From Cryomorphaceae bacterium BACL29 MAG-121220-bin8 (lineage in GTDB: Bacteria > Bacteroidota > Bacteroidia > Flavobacteriales > Flavobacteriaceae): DNA of 64,000 nt. The notes under the pieces were generated by a model. The model did no database searches. It saw nothing but the letters and a program-made list of their open reading frames with translations, and was not told the origin of the DNA. Of the stretch, positions 3,353 through 27,882 are shown piece after piece (position 1 is the stretch's first letter; every line of letters starts with the position of its first letter). Both the position numbers and the translations under genes were made by a program. Location of the stretch: positions 62,001-126,000 of the forward strand of contig CAJIYP010000002.1 of assembly GCA_905181705.1 (NCBI GenBank), in the 5' to 3' direction.

Positions 3353-3795
3353 AATTTATTTATTTTTATTTTAAATTAATAAAAAATACTTAAATGAATG
3401 TTTTAATTAAAAAAAAAAGCAATTTTTTATAATATTAATAACTTATTGAATAAAATTTTAAATTTTTATTAATTAATTGAATTAAAAATTATTTTTTCAT
3501 AATGTGAGTTTTTAATTAAAAAAAACTTTTTAATAAATGTCTTTACAGATGATTTTTATTATCGTTAAAAAAGAATAAGATTTAATACTTTATAACTTTA
3601 AACAAATAGCTTCCATACTATAAAAACAGATATTACTTGAGAAGGGTAGAGTCAATTAAAAATTACTATTGAGATTTTTTGGTTTTTGTTATAACTTAGT
3701 GATAGTTAATTAAAAAATTAATATTTACCGTTTTGAGTAAGTCTATGCCTTAGACTCCATATAAACAGAACCTTAATTCATTAATAAATTTACAC
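3353..3795. other. AT-rich intergenic region between divergent genes
   Basis: The 443-bp gap separates the minus-strand secreted-protein operon from the plus-strand beta-propeller gene. It is extremely AT-rich, with long A and T runs near 3410-3425 and 3514-3530. It holds copy A of a dispersed repeat (3601-3690). Promoters for both sides must lie here, but I found no good TTG-TAnnTTTG pair. No additional reading frame or RNA gene is evident. Confidence 0.6.
3601..3690 (+). repeat. dispersed intergenic repeat, copy A
   Basis: This stretch aligns with 5161-5255 and 22921-23022 in the same orientation. Shared landmarks in order are an ACTTCC-like block, AAAACxGATxTTA, GAGTAGGGTAG, CCAATTAAAAATTAC and TATTGAGATTTTTTGG. 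Copy A is the most diverged at its left end (AGCTTCCATACTATAAAAACAG). It sits about 105 bp before the beta-propeller gene. Confidence 0.65.
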
Positions 3796-5081
3796 ATGAG
3801 AAAAAAAATAATTTTAGGCACACTTCTTACAGGGTTAATTCTTTTGGGAATCTATTTTTATAATTTAGGGCAGAGACCAGATAGAGAATATCCGTCGTTT
3901 ACACTTCATCCTGAAAAAAAAGCCGCAACAGTTCATGACAGTATCCCTTTACAGGATGTTGTGCTAGCAGGTAATAATTGGGACGGGGTCATTACCATTT
4001 TTGACCCAAATACTTTTAAAATCATAAAAAAAGTAAGTGCCATGCCCGACGAGAGGAAAGATTTGAAGAAATCTATTCAGGCCTAAGAAGTCTTGCTTCA
4101 GGTTTTATCAGGGAATATATTGGTGAAGGCAATGATCAATTGGTTGACGACATGTTTACGTCAAATGATGGTAGGTATATTTATGCGTCAAGACCAAGTT
4201 TCGCAGACGTTGTTGCTATTGATGTCAATTCAGGGCAAATTGTTTGGCGAACACCTGTAGAAGGTATTAGATCTGATCATTCGGCTATATCTCCAGATGG
4301 TAAAATCTTTTTAGTTTCTGCCTCAACCGCACGAAAGGTACATGCCATTGATGTTTCAACGGGTGAAATCATTGGCAGTTTTGAATCTGGAGACCAACCC
4401 CATGAAAATACATACTCCGAAGATGGTAAAAAAATATACCATGCTAGTATCGGCAAAGTCTTTTTCTCGTCGCCAAATCTCGACTTCTTGAAAGGGGACC
4501 GTTGGTTTCAGATTGTTGACGCTAACACCTATGAAGTAATACGCCGTGTTGATATGAAGCAAAAATTGGAAGAAGCCGGTTTTGATTGGATTGACCGAGC
4601 AATTCGTCCAATGGCCATTACCAAAGATGAGAAATTTGCTTATTTGCAAATTTCATTGTTCCATGGTTTTTTTGAATACGATATAGAGAATGATAAAATA
4701 ACCCGAAAATTAGATTTACCTATTCCGAAAACAAATAAAAGTTTATCCCCTGGAGACCACCTTTTAGCCTCAGGACATCATGGTATTTCTCTCAGCGGAG
4801 ATGATAAAACTATATGTGTAGCGGGTACTATGGACGGCTATATCGCCATAGTGGATAGGGAAACCTTTAAATATAGCATCATTAAACTTTCTGATGATCC
4901 AAAAGAAGCAAAGCCATACTGGTCAACTTCAAGCAAAGATGGCACAAAGGCTTATGTATCTATAAGTGGGCTTGACAAAGTTTCAGTGGTTGATTATGCT
5001 ACAGCAAAAGTAGTTGCCGAAGTTCCAGTCGGGAACCATCCTCAAAGGGTTCGAAATGGACAACTGCGGTTAAGATACTAG
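3796..5081 (+). pseudogene. YncE-like beta-propeller protein, frameshifted
   Basis: The gene encodes an N-terminal membrane anchor or signal ('MRKKIILGTLLTGLILLGIY') followed by a seven-bladed-propeller-type protein of the YncE / cytochrome-D1-like group. Typical blade phrases are 'DVVLAGNNWDGVITIFDPN', 'DMFTSNDGRYIYASRPSF' and 'HGISLSGDDKTICVAGT'. The frame changes near 4050-4060. The first frame stops at 4084-4086, while the second frame is open from about 4047 (IYSGLRSLASGF) to the stop at 5079-5081. One missing base explains this, so the product is either a pseudogene or a sequencing error. Composition is visibly richer in G and C than the neighbours, and direct repeats flank it, which suggests acquisition. 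Such proteins are usually periplasmic, sometimes next to redox enzymes; none is here. Confidence 0.75.
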
Positions 5082-5160
5082 TACAGTAAGGCAAAATCAT
5101 AAAGCAAACTAATGGATTGCACAAAAAATATAATTAATAGACACGGAGTTTAGAGGTTAT

Positions 5161-5255
5161 ACATCATTATATAAACAACTTCCATTAAAAGAAAATCGAT
5201 CTTATTTGAGTAGGGTAGTACCAATTAAAATTACAATTGAGATTTTTTGGTTTTT
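5161..5255 (+). repeat. dispersed intergenic repeat, copy B
   Basis: This is the second copy of the repeat seen at 3601-3690, in the same orientation, and begins 80 bp after the beta-propeller stop. It is nearly the same as copy C in the block TTAAAAGAAAAxCGATCTTATT, followed by GTAGGGTAGxACCAATTAAA. Its right end overlaps the last codons of the minus-strand gene 5231-6529. Confidence 0.7.
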
Positions 5256-6529
5256 AATTTAGAAAATGCATAATTCCTAATGTCAATTGCTAATTTTTCA
5301 TTTAATAAATTAATATATATTTTGGAATTACTTTTTTTGAAACTTTTTATATTTTTATCGTTTGGACCCTTAATAATAATCTTTGCAAAATAATAATATG
5401 TCCAATTTAAATCTAAACATTGTATGTTAGACCGTTTTAAGACTTCTATTTCATTTAATGAATCAATAGATTCTTCATTTTGACCATTAATCAATAAGTG
5501 AATACTTTTGAAAATATCAAATCCTAACCATTCATTTATGTTTTCCCAACTATTATTAATCCTTTCTTTTTCATCATAATATTCTATTATTTTTTTAAGT
5601 AAATCATAGTTTTTTTTAATCAAACATATTGGTAATAATCCAGATATTAATTTAATGGAATTTTTGTTTTTAATTTTAAAATAGTCTAAAAAATTAAACT
5701 CTTCTAAAAATAACTTGTAAGTAAAATATCTCGCCTTTACATATTCGTTTTCAAGTAATTTATAATTTATGTTTAATGAACTTATATTGATGTTGTCTAA
5801 ATTTTTAAGTGAGAATAAATGATAGTTGTTTAGATATAGTTTTTTAAAAGAAACATCTGTGTAGTTAAATTCATTTTCATTTATGTTCGATAAAACAATA
5901 TTAAAATTTTTAGAATTAGAGTAGTCAATGTGGTAATGTATAAATGTCTGTATAAAGGACTTAGATTTCCCCAAATTTATCAAGACACTTTTATTTTTTA
6001 TAGAATTAAATCCGAAACTAATTTGATTACAAAACTTAGTTTTTAAAAGTATATCCTCATTATTTACAATGCTACAACAATCTTCGTCATAAGTATTAGA
6101 CTCAAATAATTTTAATAATAAATCATATTCATTATTAACTACAAATTTGTTAAATGCATTTGCAATTAAATCATATTTATCGTATCCTGAATAGTTTTTT
6201 AAATCATTTATTATATTACGATAATCCTTTTTGTTTAATAAATTAATTATTCTGTTTCCAAAGTTCCAATCATTAAATTTTTGATTAGAATTTTTAAAAT
6301 CATAATAATTTTTATAACCACAATATTCTGAAAATATATCTAAAGTTGATTTTCTATTTTTTAAACTATGTTTTGAAACAACACCATATATACGTCTAAT
6401 CGTATTGTAGCTTATAACTTTGTTTGTTTTGTAATATATTTCTAAAGAAAATCTTTTGGAGCTACCTAAGTCAATTATTTTTTCGCCGAACTTTGTTTCC
6501 GCAATATTAAATAACTTATTCATAAACAT
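5231..6529 (-). CDS. putative Bacteroidota regulator with N-terminal HTH-like segment
   Basis: The product is 432 aa, unusually rich in Asn, Lys and Ile. Residues of roughly 10-80 hold a pattern seen in many Bacteroidota proteins: 'SYNTIRRIYGVV', then 'STLDIFSEYCGYKNYYDF'. In those proteins this part resembles a small helical DNA-binding segment. The remainder is helical with repeated short pairs and could be TPR-like. No signal peptide is seen, so it is likely cytoplasmic. It is divergent from the beta-barrel gene, with four GTAC boxes between, which fits a regulator controlling its own locus. Its last eight codons are contributed by repeat copy B, so the original C-terminus may have been replaced. 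A second Met two codons in is an equally good start. Confidence 0.55.
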   Translation of the reverse strand: MFMNKLFNIAETKFGEKIIDLGSSKRFSLEIYYKTNKVISYNTIRRIYGVVSKHSLKNRKSTLDIFSEYCGYKNYYDFKNSNQKFNDWNFGNRIINLLNKKDYRNIINDLKNYSGYDKYDLIANAFNKFVVNNEYDLLLKLFESNTYDEDCCSIVNNEDILLKTKFCNQISFGFNSIKNKSVLINLGKSKSFIQTFIHYHIDYSNSKNFNIVLSNINENEFNYTDVSFKKLYLNNYHLFSLKNLDNINISSLNINYKLLENEYVKARYFTYKLFLEEFNFLDYFKIKNKNSIKLISGLLPICLIKKNYDLLKKIIEYYDEKERINNSWENINEWLGFDIFKSIHLLINGQNEESIDSLNEIEVLKRSNIQCLDLNWTYYYFAKIIIKGPNDKNIKSFKKSNSKIYINLLNEKLAIDIRNYAFSKLKTKKSQL

Positions 6530-17869: not shown

Positions 17870-20800
17870 ATGAAAAAATTATATTTTGTTCTAACTTTTT
17901 TATTTATTTCATCAGTTGTATATAGCCAAAATGAGTTCACCAATGCTGGAGGAAATAATCTTTGGTCGAATGCAGCAAATTGGTCTGAGAGCAGCTTCCC
18001 TAATGCAGCAGATGCGAAAGTTGTAATAAAGGCTGATTCTGTAATTGTTGATGGAGATTATACAGTTGCTCAAATAAAATTTCCTAGTAAAGATGCTGGA
18101 GGTGTAGATGTCACAACTTTTACTAATTTAAATAATGGCACCCTAACAATCACAGGAAATGGAGTTTCACAGGTATTGCAGTTAAATAAAAATCCTCAGT
18201 CTGTTATATTTAATCTTCCAGTTATTTTCGATTCATCGGAAGATGCTCAGGAAACTTGGATATTTAATAGTGGAAATCAAAAAATTACATTTGGTGAAGA
18301 TCATAGTTTAACAATAAATGACGAAATTTTTTTTACTTCAACTCAAATAACTTCGGAAATTCTTTTTAATGGAAAAACTTTAGGAGCGGGTAATCTAAAA
18401 TTTGGAGCAAAATCTAATGCTAAATTTGGAACAGCCTATGATGGTTCTGAATATACAGGAACCTTGATTGTTGCTGGTGATAGTGCAAATAGTGGTAAAA
18501 ACGTTACCCTAACTTCAAATGTCGCTGACAATGGAACCTTTGTTAAATCTGGTGCTTCAATTAGTGTTATTAAAAACGGTGGTACGGTTAATGTAAATGG
18601 AGAAAATACTTTAAAAGGTAATATAGTTCTTACAGGGCAATTTGGTCTCGCTTTAAATATCAATAAGAATCAAGATGATGTAGGTACCATTACAATGGGG
18701 AGCGGTATTTTAACTTTAAAAGCACCAACAGCCTTAACTAAAATAGCTTTTGCAAATAACTCCTCAGCGGATTGGGGTACTGGAAAACTTGTTATTACTG
18801 GTGCTAATAATAAGGAGGTTTCTTTTGGATCTGACGCTAATGGTTTGACAGCAGATCAGTTGTCACAAATATCTCTTAACGGAGCTAACGCTATGATTAA
18901 TGCTTCAGGTCAAATTTATTCTTCCTCTGTTTTAATTTCAACTTTTACCAATGCTGGGAAAGATAATCTATGGTCTAATGCTGCTAATTGGTCTGTAGGA
19001 ATTCCAACTGGAGATACTGCTAAGATTACCATTGACGCAGACCTAATTGTTGATAGTAACAAAACGGTTGCCCAAATTAAAAACAATGGAAAAACTTCGG
19101 CTGATTCATTAACCATTACTTCTATAAACAGCTCAAAACTTACTGTTACAGGTGCTGGTGTAACCCAACCTATTCAAAACAATAAAGCTTCTTCTAGTTT
19201 TGTTTTTAATCTTCCAGTTGTTTTTGATTCTGAAGGTGAAACTGAAACTATGAAAATAAATGCAGGTGGAGACGAAAGTTCGGGTTTTGCTAACATCACA
19301 TTTTCAAGTACTCTGACTTTAAATGATGAACTAGCCGTTTCAGGATCAAATAAAAACCATGATTTAAATTTAAATGGATCTTTATTAGGTGCAGGTAATT
19401 TAAAGTTTGCAAATAAAGCTCAAGTTAATTTTGGAGCTAGCTACGACGGATCCTCACATACTGGTGATATTATTGTTGCTGGAACAGGAACAAATAATGA
19501 TAATTTGATTACTTCAAATGTTTCAGATGATGGTGCTTTACTAGCTTCTGGAAATCAAATTGATGTTCAGGGAGCTGGCGCGAAAATTAACGTTAACGGA
19601 GCAAATACATTAAAAGGAAATATTAAAACAGCAGATTCGTTAACTACAACATTAACTATAAATAAAAATCAATCCGCTATTGGTACAATTACAATGGGAA
19701 ACGCTGGAACTTTAAATCTAGTATTAGCTGGAGATGTAACATCAGCTGCTTTTGCAGATAACTCCTCAGCGGATTGGGGAACTGGATCACTTGTTATCAC
19801 AGGTGCTGGAAATAATGAGGTTTCTTTTGGGACAGACGCAAATGGTTTAACTGAAGCTCAGTTAGCACTTATATCGCTTAATGGATCTACACCAGTTATT
19901 AATGCTTCAGGTCAAATTTCTACTTCTTTTATTTCAGTATCTACTTTTAACAATGCAGGTGAAGATAATCTATGGTCAAATGCTGCCAATTGGTCAGCAG
20001 GAATACCCAATGTTGACACTGCTAAAGTGACTGTCGATTCGGATCTTATTATTGATAGTAGTGTAACGGTTGGACAAATTAAAATGTCTAATGCCACTTC
20101 GGATGCTTCAGTAACTATTACAGCAACTAACAGTTCAGTACTTACTGTTACAGGTGCTGGTGTAGCCCAACCTATTCAAAACAATAAAGCTTCTTCTAGT
20201 TTTGTTTTTAATCTTCCAGTTGTTTTTGATTCTGCTGGTGAGACTGAAATTTTTCAACTTAATAGTGGAGGAGACCAAAGTATCACATTTTCAAGTTCTC
20301 TGACTTTAAATGATGAACTAACCGTTCAGGGAAAAAATAAACTTCATGATTTAAATTTAAATGGATCTTTATTAGGTGCAGGTAATTTAAAGTTTGCAAA
20401 TAAAGCTCAAGTTAATTTTGGAGCTAGCTACGACGGATCTTTACATACTGGTGATATTATTGTTGCTGGAACAGGAACAAATAATGATAATCTTGATTAC
20501 TTCAAATGTTTCAGATGATGGTACTTTACTAGCTTCTGGAAATCAAATTGATGTTCAGGGAGCTGGCGCGAAAATTAACGTTAACGGAGCAAATACATTA
20601 AAAGGAAATATTAAAACAGCAGATTCGTTAACTACAACATTAACTATAAATAAAAATCAATCCGCTATTGGTATAATTACAATGGGCAACGTTGGAACTT
20701 TAAATCTAGTATTAGCTGAAGATGTAACATCAGCTGCTTTTGCAGATAACTCCTCAGCGGATTGGGGAACTGGATCACTTGTTATTACTGGTGCTGCAGA

Positions 20801-21650
20801 CAATGAAGTTTCTTTTGGGACAGATGCTAATGGTTTAACTAACGCTCAGCTAGCACTTATATCGCTTAATGGATCTACACCATTTATTAATGCTTTAGGT
20901 CAAATTTCCACATCTAACACTGTTTTTAATCTACCTGTTAACAACAATAAAGTCTCAGTAACTAGTGCTAGTTGCATTGGTACTAGTGATGGGTCGATAG
21001 GACTTAGTGTGGAGGACAACGCGTATGATTATAGTATTACTGTTACAGGCAAAGACGATCCAATAGTAATTTCTGGGGAGAACAAGACATCTTCTGTTAC
21101 AGGATTAGCTAAGGGAACTTACAGTGTTTGCTTTAAAGTTACTGGACAAGCAGAGTATGAACAATGCTTTGAAGTGGTAATAGGCGAACCCAAAGCACTT
21201 AGTGCGTTTATTGATGTAGACAACGACAAAAGAACTACTAACATTCAATTAGGAGGCTCTAAGAGCTATAACGTGGATGTGAATGGAGAAAGATTTAAGG
21301 TAAGTGGAGATAAGTTCAATACCACTCTTCCAACCGGTCTTAGTATTATCAAGATAAGCACGGATTTAGATTGTCAAGGAATAATAGAAAGAGAGATCTT
21401 TATTTCAGAGGATATTTTCTATTATCCTAATCCAACTAAAGGAGAAGTGGATGTCTTTGTAAATGGTGAGGATAGGGGAGTGAAGATGAGTGTATTTACC
21501 ACCAAAGGAGATCTGGTGTTTACTAGAGATCAAGAGATATTAGATAGTAGAAAAACAGAATTAGATTTAACTGGTGTTCCAGCAGGAACTTACTTAGTAA
21601 CCTTGGAAGGAACAACCGTTAGAAAAACCTTTAAAATTGTAAAAAGATGA
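17870..21650 (+). pseudogene. giant repeat surface protein with T9SS tail, single-base frameshift
   Basis: The signal peptide 'MKKLYFVLTFLFISSVVYS' is followed by three long units of about 330 residues, each opening with a 'NLWSNAANWS' block. They contain beta-strand-rich text that looks like a beta-helix. The C-terminus has a 'SIGLSVEDNAYDYSITV' module and a type A T9SS sorting domain starting 'YYPNPTKGEVDV' and ending 'RKTFKIVKR'. The frame breaks at about 20492: copy 2 reads GATAATTTGATTAC, whereas copy 3 has one extra base, GATAATCTTGATTAC. The product would lose its sorting tail unless this is a sequencing error. It is probably a secreted glycan-binding or adhesin protein of the PUL. Confidence 0.8.
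17936..20930 (+). repeat. three tandem ~1-kb intragenic repeats
   Basis: Units begin near 17936, 18944 and 19946. The second and third are almost the same over long stretches (for example 19381-19700 and 20368-20685, offset 987 bp), while the first is diverged. High identity between two neighbouring units points to recent duplication or conversion and makes assembly collapse or slippage likely. The frameshift at 20492 lies in one such near-identical stretch. Confidence 0.85.
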
Positions 21651-22861: not shown

Positions 22862-22920
22862 TTTATCAAATAAGTAAAATCACTTTACCTTTTTTGTTTT
22901 TACTGTAATCATAATCTTTG

Positions 22921-23022
22921 TATTATACATAGTTATACAAACACTTCTTTAAAAGAAAACCGATCTTATTAAAGTAGGGTAGCACCAATTAAAAATTACT
23001 ATTGATATTTTTTTGGGATTTT
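22921..23022 (+). repeat. dispersed intergenic repeat, copy C
   Basis: This third copy of the repeat lies in the convergent gap between the 108-aa gene and rlmF. It carries CTTCTTTAAAAGAAAACC, GATCTTATTAAAGTAGGGTAG and CACCAATTAAAAATTAC in the same order as copies A and B. It ends with TATTGATATTTTTTTGGG. All three copies point the same way. Confidence 0.7.
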
Positions 23023-23136
23023 AGTAATACTGATTGTACAATAATCGTACAAGTTTTAAAACAAAAACCCTAATCACTTTTTTATAAAGCAGTCAGGTTT
23101 TTACTAAGCAGAGAGAAAGGGAACGCTAACTGTTGA

Positions 23137-24024: not shown

Positions 24025-24046
24025 TATTTGCGAAGTTAAACCGTTT

Positions 24047-24080
24047 TGATTAAAAATAACTGTTGAGATTTTTCGCGGTT
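24047..24080 (+). repeat. partial match to the right end of the dispersed repeat
   Basis: ATTAAAAATAACTGTTGAG followed by ATTTTTCGCGGTTTT resembles the right half of copies A-C (ATTAAAAATTACTATTGAG, then ATTTTTTGGTTTT). The left part with GTAGGGTAG is missing, so this may be a degenerate copy or chance. It lies 77 bp before the sulfatase start. Confidence 0.35.
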
Positions 24081-24117: not shown

Positions 24118-24222
24118 TTGATTACACTAAGAATTGAGTTAAATTAAATATTAATTATGAAAAAACTAATTCTACTATTACTGTTTATTCCACTTGTTTC
24201 TGTTGCCCAAAGTCCAAATATA
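24118..24222 (+). repeat. duplicated promoter/leader, sulfatase copy
   Basis: This stretch covers the bases before the sulfatase and its signal peptide codons. It matches 25507-25610 before the esterase: ATTxCACTAAGAATTxAG, TTAAATTxA, then ATGAAAAAACTAxTTCTACT and ATTACTGTTTxTTCCxxT. The two genes share upstream DNA and an almost identical signal peptide, so one leader was copied to the other gene. Confidence 0.7.
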
Positions 24223-25464
24223 GTATACATTTTAGTAGATGATTTAGGATATGGCGATTTGAGTTCTTATGGTGCAATAGATGTTAAAACTCCAGTTATT
24301 GATAAACTAGCAAGTGAAGGTAAACTTTTTACTAGAGCATATGCAAACAGTAATGTTTGTTCACCAAGCAGAGCTGCAATTTTATCAGGAAATTATCCTG
24401 ATAGAGTAGGAGTGCCAGGTGTGATAAGACAATTTGAAGATAATGATTGGGGAAATTTAAGTGATGATTTTGTTTCTTTACCTGATGAGCTAAAAAAGTC
24501 AGGATATAAAACTGCTCTTATTGGAAAATGGCATTTAGGTTTAGAATCTCCAGATATACCAAATAAGAAAGGATTTGATTTTTTTAAAGGTTTTTTAGGT
24601 GACATGATGGATGATTATAATCATCATTTAAGAGATGGTGTTAATTGGATGAGAGAGAATGATGTTGAAATTAATCCAAAGGGACATGCAACTGATTTAT
24701 TTACTCAATGGTCAGTTGATTACATTAATCAAAATAAAGATTCTAAAAATCCATTCTTTTTATTTTTAAATTATAATGCCCCTCATTCACCCATTCAACC
24801 TCCCAAAAAATGGTTGAATTTGGTTAAAAAAAGAGAAAACAAAGCTGATTTAAGTCGTCAGAAATTAATTGCTTTTATAGAACATTTGGATAATTCAATT
24901 GAAAAGGTTTTAATTTCTCTTGAAAAAAATCATCTTATTGAAAACACTATTATTGTTTTCACTTCTGACAATGGAGGTGCGTTGCATCATTCAGCTTCCA
25001 ACAAACCTCTAAACGGAGGAAAAGGTAACATGATGGAAGGAGGGATAAGGGTTCCGTGTATAGTAAAGTGGCAAAGTGTTGTAAAACCAGGTATTGTTAA
25101 TGAGCCTATCATGTTGATGGATTTTTATCCAACACTAGTAAATATCACAAGAAAATTTGAAAATTTAGAACTACCGTCAAAAAATATTCTTCCTTTATTA
25201 AAAAATAATATGCTGTCATATAATGATAGGTTTATGGTCTGGGTTCGAAGAGAAGGTCATGTTTTCGGAGGAAGAGCTTTTTACGCTATTTCTGATGGTC
25301 GTTATAAATTATTACAAAATTCCCCCTTTGAACCATATGTTTTATATGATTTGAATAATGATCCGTTGGAAAAAAATCCTATCAATAACAAGAAGATTAG
25401 AAATAAGCTTCAAAAAGAGCTTACAAAACATATACAGATTTCGGGAAATATTCCTTGGCAGTAA
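24157..25464 (+). CDS. secreted S1-family sulfatase
   Basis: The 435-aa product has a signal peptide 'MKKLILLLLFIPLVSVAQ'. It shows the sulfatase start 'PNIVYILVDDLGYGDLSSYG' and the active-site motif 'CSPSRAAILSG', in which Cys68 becomes formylglycine. Metal-binding blocks 'GKWHLGLE' and 'FTSDNGGALHHSASN' are present. Periplasmic enzymes of this type remove sulfate from algal polysaccharides. The gene is intact. No maturase gene is in the window. It forms a unit with the esterase 81 bp downstream and suggests a sulfated glycan substrate for the nearby PUL. Confidence 0.92.
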   Translation: MKKLILLLLFIPLVSVAQSPNIVYILVDDLGYGDLSSYGAIDVKTPVIDKLASEGKLFTRAYANSNVCSPSRAAILSGNYPDRVGVPGVIRQFEDNDWGNLSDDFVSLPDELKKSGYKTALIGKWHLGLESPDIPNKKGFDFFKGFLGDMMDDYNHHLRDGVNWMRENDVEINPKGHATDLFTQWSVDYINQNKDSKNPFFLFLNYNAPHSPIQPPKKWLNLVKKRENKADLSRQKLIAFIEHLDNSIEKVLISLEKNHLIENTIIVFTSDNGGALHHSASNKPLNGGKGNMMEGGIRVPCIVKWQSVVKPGIVNEPIMLMDFYPTLVNITRKFENLELPSKNILPLLKNNMLSYNDRFMVWVRREGHVFGGRAFYAISDGRYKLLQNSPFEPYVLYDLNNDPLEKNPINNKKIRNKLQKELTKHIQISGNIPWQ

Positions 25465-25506: not shown

Positions 25507-25610
25507 TATTTAGATTGCACTAAGAATTAAGTTAAATTTAAGATTATGAAAAAACTACTTCTACTATTACTGTTTGTTCCTTTAGTTTCTTTTGGGCAAG
25601 ATTGTCCTCC
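25507..25610 (+). repeat. duplicated promoter/leader, esterase copy
   Basis: This is the second copy of the leader found at 24118-24222. It carries ATTGCACTAAGAATTAAG and TTAAATTTAAGATT directly before ATGAAAAAACTACTTCTACT, so the ATG-proximal bases and the signal peptide codons are shared with the sulfatase. Differences are mainly third-position and small indels. Confidence 0.7.
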
Positions 25611-26484
25611 CTGTGAAGTTATCGCTAATGCTGATATGGAAATTACATCGATTAAATCAAGTTGGCCAAAGATTAAAAATAAAAGTATTGTTAAGATAAA
25701 TAGTCTTACAAATATCCTTTATGAAAATCAAGACGATTATTGGGAACAATCGAAAAGATCTTCATGGTGGATGAAAGAAGGTCGAGATCCCTGGACTGAA
25801 GATGCAATATGGGGAGATGGCTATATTGAGCCTAATTTAAATTTTAATTCTTGTGTAAACGATAATTTAAGATGGAAGTGTGGTTATTCTTATGTGTTGA
25901 GGTTTCCTGAAAATTTTAAAAAAAATAAAAAATACCCTCTGGTTGTTTTTTTACACGGAGGAGTAACTGCAAATCAAGGCGGATTAAATGGAAGGGTTCG
26001 AACTGTAAATAGTTTTTTTATCCCTGAAAATGATCAATATATAATTGCCTCTCCAATCAAACTAGGAATTGATTGGAGTCCAAAAAAAATACAAGATGTA
26101 ATTGCAGATATAGAGTCTCAATTGAAAATTGATAAAAAGAGGATTTACCTCACAGGACTTAGCATGGGTGGAAGAGGAACTTTTATAGTTGCGGCTGAAT
26201 TACCTGATTTATTTGCTGCTATCATGCCATTAAGTCCTCATCACACGCCTTATTCATATGTTAAATTAGCTAGTAAGGTTTCGGATTTACCAATATTTCT
26301 ACATCATAGTACAAACGACAAAACATCTAAATTTTCTATTGCAGAAAAAATGTCAGAAGAACTTAAAAAGTTAAATGCTAACATTATTTTTGATGTTGGT
26401 GAATTTGGTCATTCAGGATGGAATAAGATTTATAAAAATCCTGACAATATAAATTGGTTACTTTCTTGGCAAAAATCAAAATGA
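25546..26484 (+). CDS. secreted alpha/beta-hydrolase, esterase type
   Basis: The 312-aa product has a signal peptide 'MKKLLLLLLFVPLVSFGQ' nearly the same as that of the sulfatase. The catalytic triad can be placed: Ser in 'LTGLSMGGRGTF' (GxSxG), Asp near 'HHSTNDKTSKF' and His in 'VGEFGHSGW'. An oxyanion 'LVVFLHGGVTANQGG' block is also visible. It resembles the prolyl-oligopeptidase / PHB-depolymerase-like esterases that remove acyl groups from glycans. It likely acts with the sulfatase on decorated polysaccharide. The exact substrate is unknown. Confidence 0.85.
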   Translation: MKKLLLLLLFVPLVSFGQDCPPCEVIANADMEITSIKSSWPKIKNKSIVKINSLTNILYENQDDYWEQSKRSSWWMKEGRDPWTEDAIWGDGYIEPNLNFNSCVNDNLRWKCGYSYVLRFPENFKKNKKYPLVVFLHGGVTANQGGLNGRVRTVNSFFIPENDQYIIASPIKLGIDWSPKKIQDVIADIESQLKIDKKRIYLTGLSMGGRGTFIVAAELPDLFAAIMPLSPHHTPYSYVKLASKVSDLPIFLHHSTNDKTSKFSIAEKMSEELKKLNANIIFDVGEFGHSGWNKIYKNPDNINWLLSWQKSK

Positions 26485-26531
26485 AAAAATTAATTAAACT
26501 ATTACTGTCTACTTCCCAATACAGAAATTAG
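26481..26531 (+). pseudogene. orphan signal-peptide start, remnant of a third leader copy
   Basis: The ATG at 26481 overlaps the esterase stop (ATGA) and reads 'MKKLIKLLLSTSQYRN' then TAG. The first nine residues match the starts of the sulfatase and esterase (MKKLILLLL, MKKLLLLLL). It runs into the mnmE 3' end after about 28 bp. It looks like the beginning of a third gene of this cluster that has been lost or cut at the junction with core DNA. Confidence 0.5.
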
Positions 26532-27882
26532 CAAATATATTTCCTAACACATCATCATTAGTTATTTCACCTGTGATTTCAGCTAGATATTCAATTGATC
26601 TTCTAATGTCAACAGAAAGAAGGTCACCTGAAATATTTTCTTTTAAACCAATATTAACTTCTTCGATAGCTTTTAAAGCTTTAATTAAAGCCTCGTAGTG
26701 TCTTGAATTACTTATTATTATATCGTTGTATGGGTTTAGAATATCAACTTCATTTACAAGTCTTTTTTTAAGTTTTGAAACAGAATCTGAATCAGTAGCA
26801 GAAATTTCTAATAATTCAAAATCATTTAAGTCATCTAACAAAGTTTGATTTTGATTTTTTAAATCAATTTTATTTCTGACTAATATTATTGACAAGTCAT
26901 TTCTTTTAAAACTATTTATACTAGATTCTATTTCTCTAAAATTAGTATCGTTGCAATCAAATAGATAAAGTAATATTTTAGCTTTCTTGATTTTTTCTTT
27001 AGTTTTTTCAATTCCCTTAGATTCAATTACATCAACTGTTTCTCTCAATCCAGCAGTGTCAGTAAATCTAAAATTGATTCCTTCAATCACTAATGAATCT
27101 TCAATACTATCCCTTGTTGTTCCGGGAATATCAGAAACTATAGCTTTATCTTCATTTAAGAGTGTATTTAAAAGAGATGATTTACCAGCATTAGGTTTCC
27201 CTGCAATTGCTACGGAAATACCATTTTTTAAAACATTTCCAGATTGAAAGGAATCAATAAGAATTTTTAATTCTGATTGAATTTTTTTAGTAAGTTTTTT
27301 GAATTCTTCTCTTTCAGCAAACTCTACATCCTCCTGAGAAAAATCCAACTCTAATTCTATCATTGATGAAAAATGCAATAATTCAGCTCTTAATTTTTTT
27401 AAATCATTACTAAATCCACTTTTCATTTGTTGCATAGCTAACTTATGTGAACCTTCATTTTCAGAAGCAATTAAATCAGCAACAGCTTCAGCTTGATTTA
27501 AATCCATTTTTCCGTTTATAAATGCTCTTAAGGTAAATTCTCCTGGATTTGCTGAACGAATACCATTATCTAAATACAGATTGATTATTTCTTTTTGAAT
27601 ATAAGTTGACCCGTGACATGATATTTCAATTGTATCTTCACCAGTGTAGGAGTGAGGACCCTTAAATAGTGTGATTAGAACCTCATCAATTTCACGATTA
27701 TTTTTTAATAAATGTCCTAGATGAACTGTATGGGATTTTTGATCTGACAAAACTTTATTTTTTTTACTTCTAAATAACTTATCGGTAATTAAAATTGCAT
27801 CTTTCCCAGAAACTCTAATCACTGAAATGGCTCCAAGCCCATTGGGGGTTGCCAATGCTATTATCGTTTCTTGGTTGATCAT
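26509..27882 (-). CDS. mnmE: tRNA modification GTPase MnmE
   Basis: The 457-aa product acts with MnmG to modify the wobble uridine of tRNAs. The N-terminal tetrahydrofolate-binding domain has 'DTIEISCHGSTYIQ'. The central G domain shows 'GKPNAGKSSLLN', 'DIPGTTRDSIED', 'DTAGL' and 'RNKID'. The C-terminus is the diagnostic 'CIGK'. Length is normal. It overlaps the remnant at its 3' end and touches the next gene at 27882. Confident. Confidence 0.96.
   Translation of the reverse strand: MINQETIIALATPNGLGAISVIRVSGKDAILITDKLFRSKKNKVLSDQKSHTVHLGHLLKNNREIDEVLITLFKGPHSYTGEDTIEISCHGSTYIQKEIINLYLDNGIRSANPGEFTLRAFINGKMDLNQAEAVADLIASENEGSHKLAMQQMKSGFSNDLKKLRAELLHFSSMIELELDFSQEDVEFAEREEFKKLTKKIQSELKILIDSFQSGNVLKNGISVAIAGKPNAGKSSLLNTLLNEDKAIVSDIPGTTRDSIEDSLVIEGINFRFTDTAGLRETVDVIESKGIEKTKEKIKKAKILLYLFDCNDTNFREIESSINSFKRNDLSIILVRNKIDLKNQNQTLLDDLNDFELLEISATDSDSVSKLKKRLVNEVDILNPYNDIIISNSRHYEALIKALKAIEEVNIGLKENISGDLLSVDIRRSIEYLAEITGEITNDDVLGNIFANFCIGK

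Follow-up and report, generated by a model that had tools for sequence, protein, structure and literature searches.

Integron gene cassettes are single genes which share a 3' site and are organized in same-strand arrays. In Dehalococcoides, ssrA-specific islands are found in tandem downstream of the tmRNA gene, with 20-bp copies of its 3' end between them and with variable cargo; according to the available part of that study, 15 of the 31 islands are without an integration module and were suggested to be cis-mobilizable (PMC3146451).

The present analysis concerns a repeat in a genus of small-genome marine Flavobacteriaceae, which is the tRNA-facing end of integrative cassettes. The window, i.e. 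the whole stretch of 64,000 nucleotides that was analysed, belongs to a genome (G000) of 1.84 Mb in 4 contigs with 87% completeness. The repeat is about 100 bp long, and a repeat finder located three copies of this one family, A, B and C, all on the plus strand, at 3623-3680, 5192-5249 and 22956-23013. The features of the window to which the text refers are the following.

3581..3681, plus strand: copy A, repeat core, the most diverged of the three window copies
3681..3710, plus strand: stub of a type I segment (first ~28 nt), fused to copy A; junction also present in G012
3758..5077, plus strand: cargo block, 93-94% nucleotide identity with relatives
3796..5081, plus strand: YNCE-like beta-propeller gene; its frame, open in G012 and G013, is broken here near 4050
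5150..5249, plus strand: copy B, repeat core, interpreted as right end of the propeller-gene element
22916..23015, plus strand: copy C of the repeat, aligned core
23015..23106, plus strand: type II segment fused to copy C, direct repeats TGTACAA-taat-CGTACAA, terminator-like hairpin by eye
23108..23122, plus strand: decayed core of a tRNA-Ser 3' end, counted by eye
24046..24075, plus strand: partial, decayed repeat end, then the shared promoter/signal-peptide leader (by eye, weak)
24157..25464, plus strand: sulfatase gene with the shared leader start (Pfam, leader comparison)
25546..26484, plus strand: esterase-like gene with the shared leader start (Pfam, leader comparison)
26509..27882, minus strand: mnmE (Pfam)

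Copies A and B match each other with E = 8.8e-15 in a search within their own genome, and A, B and C each match a copy at tRNA-Ser with E of about 1e-12, which is far beyond chance. The original prediction, made from the letters of the window, of same-orientation repeats on both sides of the beta-propeller gene is borne out on the plus strand, with cores at 3581-3681 and 5150-5249, and the third copy that it placed at 22921-23022 was recovered with its core at 22916-23015. At least four further copies, some of them partial, are present in the same genome, at ~230.6-230.8 kb of contig C2 and at ~611.0, ~612.6 and ~619.3 kb of contig C1, the last being cut off by the contig end. The left flank of several copies (e.g. 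at loci L062 and L118) contains a short module, CATAGGCATATCTTCTTCTTTTAATTCAG, which also occurs in a second kind of gene leader, before genes in loci L054 and L048. A reading of the left flank as a coding remnant (...AELKEEDMP...) was rejected, as only short frames and no nameable gene were found.

Copies of the repeat were collected from the window and 67 loci, most of which had been chosen for a match to the repeat query, the integrase family or the propeller, with a few representing flanks or contig ends; the resulting 59 copies come from 15 genomes. In the cassette end, the cargo gene is followed by the repeat and by a segment of ~93 nt with direct repeats and a terminator, which leads up to a tRNA or tmRNA gene at its 3' end. 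The nearest upstream open reading frame (ORF) lies on the strand of the repeat for 39 of the 59 copies and on the opposite strand for 15, with none present for 5. Ten of these copies run into a segment of type I and 15 into one of type II (~93 nt); over all places found, type I was counted 20 times and type II 18 times. Type I is characterized by the direct repeats GGCAAC-gattca-GGCAAC, type II by CGTACAA-taat-CGTACAA, and the repeat itself contains TTATACA-tac-TTATACA. With a period of 10 to 12 in all three, these direct repeats are putative arm sites of an integrase. Both segment types carry a terminator-like hairpin beside the RNA gene (by eye). Ends at tRNA-Asn have a different kind of segment, which includes the 15-mer GCAAATTTTGTGCAA in 3 of 3 loci; the same 15-mer is found in G337, a genome of another genus, between a tRNA fragment and an integrase gene, and this common feature is taken as a lead only.

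Of the 22 genus genomes, 15 yielded copies of the repeat itself. A query of 201 nt, taken from the tRNA-Ser copy and composed of 127 nt of repeat and left flank and 74 nt of the type I segment, has matches in 18 of the 22 (own genome included) and, weakly, one of 38 others; in G005, G010 and G018, the match covers the type I part only. Family-wide, a 197-nt query matches 11 of 299 genomes at 1e-5, three of them from the genus, and among the eight non-genus matches the repeat core is present only in G337, the rest corresponding to the terminator part of type I; because this search scored two candidates per genome, its misses weigh little. An exact pattern was found in 32 stretches within a collection of 84,980 species, all from metagenome-assembled genomes titled Flavobacteriaceae, Flavobacteriales, Cryomorphaceae or Bacteroidetes. 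Three of these records belong to G060, G061 and G062, which have 2, 3 and 2 matches, respectively. An origin of the repeat in phages or plasmids was rejected on the grounds that it has no match in phages and plasmids and that the exact pattern gave 0 matches in viral contigs. In a literature search of titles and abstract openings, with subscription journals mostly outside its reach, no published description of the repeat was found.

The position of the repeat is tied to stable RNA genes. An intact tRNA or tmRNA gene lies within 300 bp on the 3' side of 21 of the 54 testable copies, which represent 6 loci across several genomes and not 21 independent events, and on the 5' side of 0 of 54. The anchors of the 21 copies are tRNA-Ser(TGA) (6), tmRNA (7), tRNA-Ser(GCT) (3), tRNA-Asn (3), tRNA-Leu(CAA) (1) and tRNA-Ala(GGC) (1); the spacing between repeat and RNA gene is 53-71 or 101-103 bp, and all 21 are convergent. 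The query by which loci were found included 74 nt from the tRNA side of type I and thereby favoured type I copies next to a tRNA; this bias does not extend to the copies at Asn and Leu or to those of type II. With 2 mismatches allowed, the type II 18-mer has 25 occurrences, spread over 12 of 21 genomes, against 1 for the reversed pattern; of the 25, 19 abut an intact tRNA or tmRNA gene, 4 are internal, one of these being window copy C, and 2 are unrelated (coding-like by eye). G009 alone has the 18-mer at Leu-TAA, Leu-CAA, Ala, Ser-TGA, Ser-GCT and tmRNA genes. Inside arrays, copies of tRNA or tmRNA ends of at least 13 nt were detected in G017, G019, G020, G009, G007 and G013. The same scan for RNA-gene ends also returned a tRNA-Asp end in G012, in G007 and G015 the ends of integrase islands of the conventional kind, two RNA-gene pieces uncalled by ARAGORN, and four one-mismatch matches elsewhere, which are taken as chance.

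Three elements, two at tmRNA (G007, G009) and one at tRNA-Ser (G017), have both att-like ends readable, and the far side of each is closed by a copy of at least 13 nt of the end of the target RNA gene. The tmRNA element of G007 measures about 2.1 kb and carries a DUF285/InlB-repeat protein, and that of G009 measures about 2.6 kb and carries a peptidase M15, a BNR-repeat protein and a small ORF. For the element of G017, a near-empty site is provided by G012, as the two genomes are 97.2% identical across 4.9 kb up to tRNA-Ser(TGA). In G017, this tRNA gene is separated from a 13-nt copy of its own end by an insert of 7,712 bp, whose tRNA side carries type II and the repeat; in G012, a type I segment which resembles the G017 segment beyond the 13-nt copy follows directly after the tRNA gene. 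The first 3,295 bp of the insert gave three matches to G012, the longest being 267 bp at 67%. G012 is near-empty and no perfect ancestral site, because its type I segment differs at several positions from the distal one of G017, which is fused to a repeat, and because the G012 contig stops about 130 bp past its type I segment in an assembly that is 72% complete.

One end is shared between targets: a stretch of 197 nt is 100% identical between tRNA-Ser(TGA) in G000 and tmRNA in G011, where the flanking genes of the two genomes are 75% identical at the Ser locus (5.8 kb) and 88% at the tmRNA locus (1.4 kb). Each of these genomes has a type II end at the locus used by the other, i.e. at tmRNA in G000 and at tRNA-Ser in G011. 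On the level of sequence comparison, the identical end at two targets indicates movement between targets. Chimeric contigs misjoined at repeats could mimic some of the shared ends.

Cargo is shared between species as well. From the best 15 BLAST matches per locus (at least 250 bp, 1e-20), 24 pairs chosen by hand, 22 of cargo and 2 of the propeller, were inspected at their borders; they are 81-95% identical at the nucleotide level, mostly in ORF-sized blocks whose flanks differ (by eye). Among the matches listed, cargo is more alike than core loci in seven genome pairs, namely G011/G014 (92 vs 76%), G009/G014 (94 vs 76%), G009/G019 (95 vs 76%), G011/G013 (87 vs 72-78%), G011/G019 (87-90 vs 77-79%), G000/G012 (92-93 vs 78%) and, for the propeller, G000/G013 (94% vs 79% at tRNA-Ser(GCT) and 88% at tmRNA). 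Cargo is no more alike than core for the GMC gene of G008/G000 (77 vs 78%) and the GH76 gene of G011/G013 (76 vs 72-78%). In G008, a GMC oxidoreductase gene is located between two exact 29-nt copies of part of the type I segment (L061 7100-7128 and 8745-8773), possibly a second insertion point besides the tRNA core.

The propeller gene between A and B has a base composition unlike that of its neighbours, as had been predicted: its GC content is 38.8%, whereas the 57 ORFs of the window average 29.1% (s.d. 3.5), and its piece 4140-5081 is the GC-richest among them. The frame, correctly described as broken, lacks one base near 4050 in comparison with the open homologues in G012 (441 aa) and G013 (463 aa); since the sequence is a metagenome assembly, this frameshift may be an assembly error. 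The gene is present in 3 of the 22 genus genomes, with an additional 33-aa fragment in G016, and three genomes of other families give weak matches (27-29%). In relatives, the block is located elsewhere than in the window. Its right homology border falls at window position 5077 in G012 and G016 and at 5070 in G013 (BLAST), i.e. within 8 nt; beyond it follow another gene in G012, a tmRNA 3'-end fragment in G013, a type II terminator with a decayed tmRNA core in G016 (by eye), and in the window the stretch before B. As this border nearly coincides with the end of the gene, it proves little by itself, and the tmRNA ends prove more. On the left, G013 is homologous from 3758 onward and G012 already from 3653, a position within copy A; G012 has copy A in part, plus its type I stub. 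Part of A and the gene thus occur together in two lineages, which makes B a separate end. No B-like copy was seen beside the propeller gene in G012, G013 or G016, a search for a type I or II segment after copy B detected none, and the RNA-end scan found no far RNA-gene core for the propeller cassette of the window. On the other strand, the 3' end of a 432-aa ORF (5231-6529, 20.7% GC, no Pfam match) overlaps copy B.

The suggestion that the repeat might mark an insertion or recombination cassette consequently holds in kind and fails in detail. The gene behaves as a mobile cassette, with a block shared with G013 (3758-5077) lying between A and B and with its occurrence in three genomes and as a fragment, and the repeat marks cassette ends; A and B, however, are best taken not for the two ends of one element but for one and the same end, the right, of two successive elements; in the three relatives, no B-like copy was seen at the gene, and A is present, partially, in G012 only. 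In G013, the gene stands without a left repeat and with the tmRNA fragment at its right, so that a gene without repeats, the case which was to refute the suggestion, is seen in part; the positional relation between repeat and gene gain holds genus-wide.

The window repeats all three point toward the mnmE 3' end, and repeats oriented in this way to mnmE are also present in G011 (four) and G060 (one). With up to 3 mismatches allowed in 18 positions, a search of the window, L048 and L095 gave no duplicated mnmE end, so that mnmE is a candidate attachment gene only. Copy C has kept its type II segment and a decayed tRNA-Ser end with no tRNA nearby, and ARAGORN called no tRNA in the window; 13 of the 15 nt at 23108..23122 match the end of the genome's own tRNA-Ser(GCT), and the offset from the type II segment is equal, too. 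In G016, a 401-aa tyrosine integrase lies beside the mnmE 3' end (L095, G016:C23 3589-4794), with repeated TTTACGT-like motifs between integrase and mnmE (by eye). A recombinase relic beside mnmE in G011, a first by-eye reading, was rejected, as four short frames, each searched separately, gave no Pfam match. Elsewhere in the window, repeats with a period of ~1 kb (18746-20907), whose copies are 78-98% alike over different stretches, span the ORFs 17870-20518 and 20394-21650.

The cargo families identified by Pfam include sulfatase, esterase, peptidases M3, S15, M15 and M48, glycosidases GH18, GH76 and GH78, gluconolactonase, photolyase, fatty acid desaturase, GMC oxidoreductase and a beta-lactamase-family protein. 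A number of genes begin with a shared leader start (MKKLILLLLFIPLVSFGQ), of which 25 copies were found in 8 genomes (window 24157 and 25546; L048, L050, L052, L054, L057, L059, L108, L110 and others) and whose nearly identical first 54 nt encode a signal peptide. Six of the 25 reach a stop within 45 codons and 19 are gene-like, most with unrelated bodies. Identity falls from 75% at codons 1-18 to 32% at codons 20-60, and leucine codons agree in 74% as compared to 38% in 80 control signal-peptide-like ORFs; since the leaders were picked by similarity, only this abrupt fall and the codon agreement are informative. A same-strand repeat follows within 3 kb downstream of 9 of the 25 leaders, in 7 of these 9 without an intervening ORF of 100 aa. 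The occurrence of this signal-peptide start on gene bodies that are otherwise unrelated suggests a modular transfer of secretion signals.

In a cargo sample of some 45 proteins, taken from the window and from arrays, Pfam named no recombinase or relaxase family, from which we infer that the cassettes are non-autonomous, moved in trans and fixed by tandem accretion. A helper recombinase acting in trans is likely. The general Phage_integrase family has 1-4 matches in 16 of 17 genomes, and in 10 of the 17, in assemblies that are incomplete, nothing was found beyond one or two ~300-aa proteins, called Xer-like by size and ubiquity, with none at all in G021. No resolvase domain was matched in those 10 genomes, though all 10 carry the repeat; this domain is present in only 5 of 20 genomes and absent from G000, G009, G019 and G020, and a serine recombinase as in Dehalococcoides was rejected on this basis. 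The repeat has no match in four integrase-bearing stretches (L090, L091, L092 and L095), which are located near tRNA-Val, tRNA-Met, tRNA-Phe and mnmE. In G337 (L197, G337:C52 4504-6151), the cassette end stops at a ~48-nt fragment of tRNA-Met (by eye), beyond which lie genes encoding a tyrosine integrase, an AAA protein and a protein whose ParB match is below threshold. This integrase was matched in 13 of 19 genus genomes, by 11 frames of 302-310 aa (Xer-like) and 2 frames of 201 and 77 aa; it was rejected as a helper for the genus, given that the genus matches are mostly Xer-like and that the best match of all, at 27% identity, was in G061.

We consider it probable that integrative cassettes of a non-autonomous kind, which are moved in trans and pile up in tandem, have the repeat as their conserved right end. 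Each cassette would hold one or a few genes, in most cases directed at the repeat. A tyrosine integrase provided in trans would bind the direct repeats as arm sites and recombine the core of the cassette with the tRNA end, thereby leaving the RNA gene whole, and every new arrival would shift the older cassettes outward. Old arrays, such as the one of the window that faces mnmE, would decay to blurred cores, truncated repeats and frameshifted cargo; A and B would be the right ends of two successive cassettes, with the propeller gene as the cargo of the second. Observed are the end, its anchors, the tandem order of cassettes and the presence of one end in different species and at different targets; arm sites, helper integrase and accretion order are inferred. 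The same end types at several RNA genes with different cores argue against one integrase with a fixed core, and the left ends of the cassettes vary.

Homologous recombination alone, which we regard as unlikely, is the best surviving alternative. Repeats, terminators and leaders would here serve as islands of identity by which blocks are swapped at tRNA loci, with no site-specific recombinase involved today. This would agree with the Xer-like recombinases being the only ones found, at most, in 10 of 17 genomes, with the same ends at different tRNA genes, with the shared 5' leader as a second block of homology, and with junctions at which a repeat runs directly into a leader, as at L050 17093. 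However, the duplication of tRNA/tmRNA ends on the far side of elements and a constant distance to many RNA genes are signatures of site-specific integration. Decidedly unlikely, in our view, is a genus-wide parallel to integrons, in which cassettes of one gene, all alike at the 3' end and often also at the 5' start (promoter and signal peptide), would be captured at the 3' ends of many tRNA/tmRNA genes by a host recombinase such as XerC/XerD, with no element-borne integrase.

A truly integron-like system would require the repeat to be an attC-like site that is folded single-stranded and recombined by an integron integrase. The single-gene cassettes, their genes usually directed toward the repeat, and the tandem same-strand arrays would fit, but the arrays start at tRNA ends and the copies fold no better than shuffles (z 0.25 to 1.81; 9 folds of 3 copies, as RNA or DNA), which makes this system very improbable; the same folding result from 3 copies, along with the lack of an Rfam match in the window, led us to reject a structured RNA or attC-like hairpin. 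A dispersed repeat (MITE or IS remnant) or an RNA element unlinked to gene gain would be multi-copy, intergenic and partly decayed as well, and is scarcely credible in view of the fixed position relative to tRNA/tmRNA ends, the lack of folding excess, the 0 Rfam matches in the window at gathering scores and the absence, at the 40-nt threshold of the repeat finder, of inverted pairs involving the window copies.

Stacked at the ends of RNA genes, these very small units probably pass single useful genes between species, and they represent a visible route by which streamlined uncultured ocean bacteria come to single enzymes (sulfatase, glycosidases, peptidases, photolyase). The repeat may be used as a DNA tag for listing the cassette pool from metagenomes. 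Furthermore, the use of one end at many RNA genes raises the question of how an integration system can change its target without changing its arms.

Unlike integron cassettes, the cassettes described here have a site without folding excess and are anchored at the end of a tRNA or tmRNA gene. They resemble the Dehalococcoides islands in their tandem position at tmRNA with end copies and variable cargo, and differ in that they are often of one gene, with a common ~200-bp end; in the available part of that study, the islands are all at one gene and the module-bearing ones encode CcrB-like serine recombinases, whereas the present cassettes use at least six kinds of RNA genes and no recombinase was found in the cargo searched (PMC3146451). 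Like CIMEs and accretion tandems, they have att sites at both ends (in G007, G009 and G017) and, in the sample of some 45 proteins, no integration or transfer genes, and they lie in tandem at the 3' end of the target; CIMEs, as the accessible text presents them, are decay products of one ICE or IME, in contrast to a uniform-ended family over many species and targets (PMC5704250). The additive flexible islands of Methylophilaceae likewise belong to streamlined aquatic bacteria, with repeated copies of the last 20 bp of a tRNA and cargo from 1 CDS upward, and are described, in the sections at hand, at one tRNA-Lys and with no conserved end other than the tRNA, as opposed to the shared end and many targets found here (PMC10872708). 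Tycheposons, too, are tRNA-anchored cargo elements of marine bacteria, and anchoring at tRNA ends is what we observe; according to the same partial source, they measure 4-200 kb and have their own tyrosine recombinase, compared to sizes down to 2 kb and no such enzyme among the cargo proteins searched (PMC10872708). Thus, tRNA-anchored accreting elements are known already, and the new elements are an end shared by multiple targets and cassettes of one gene.
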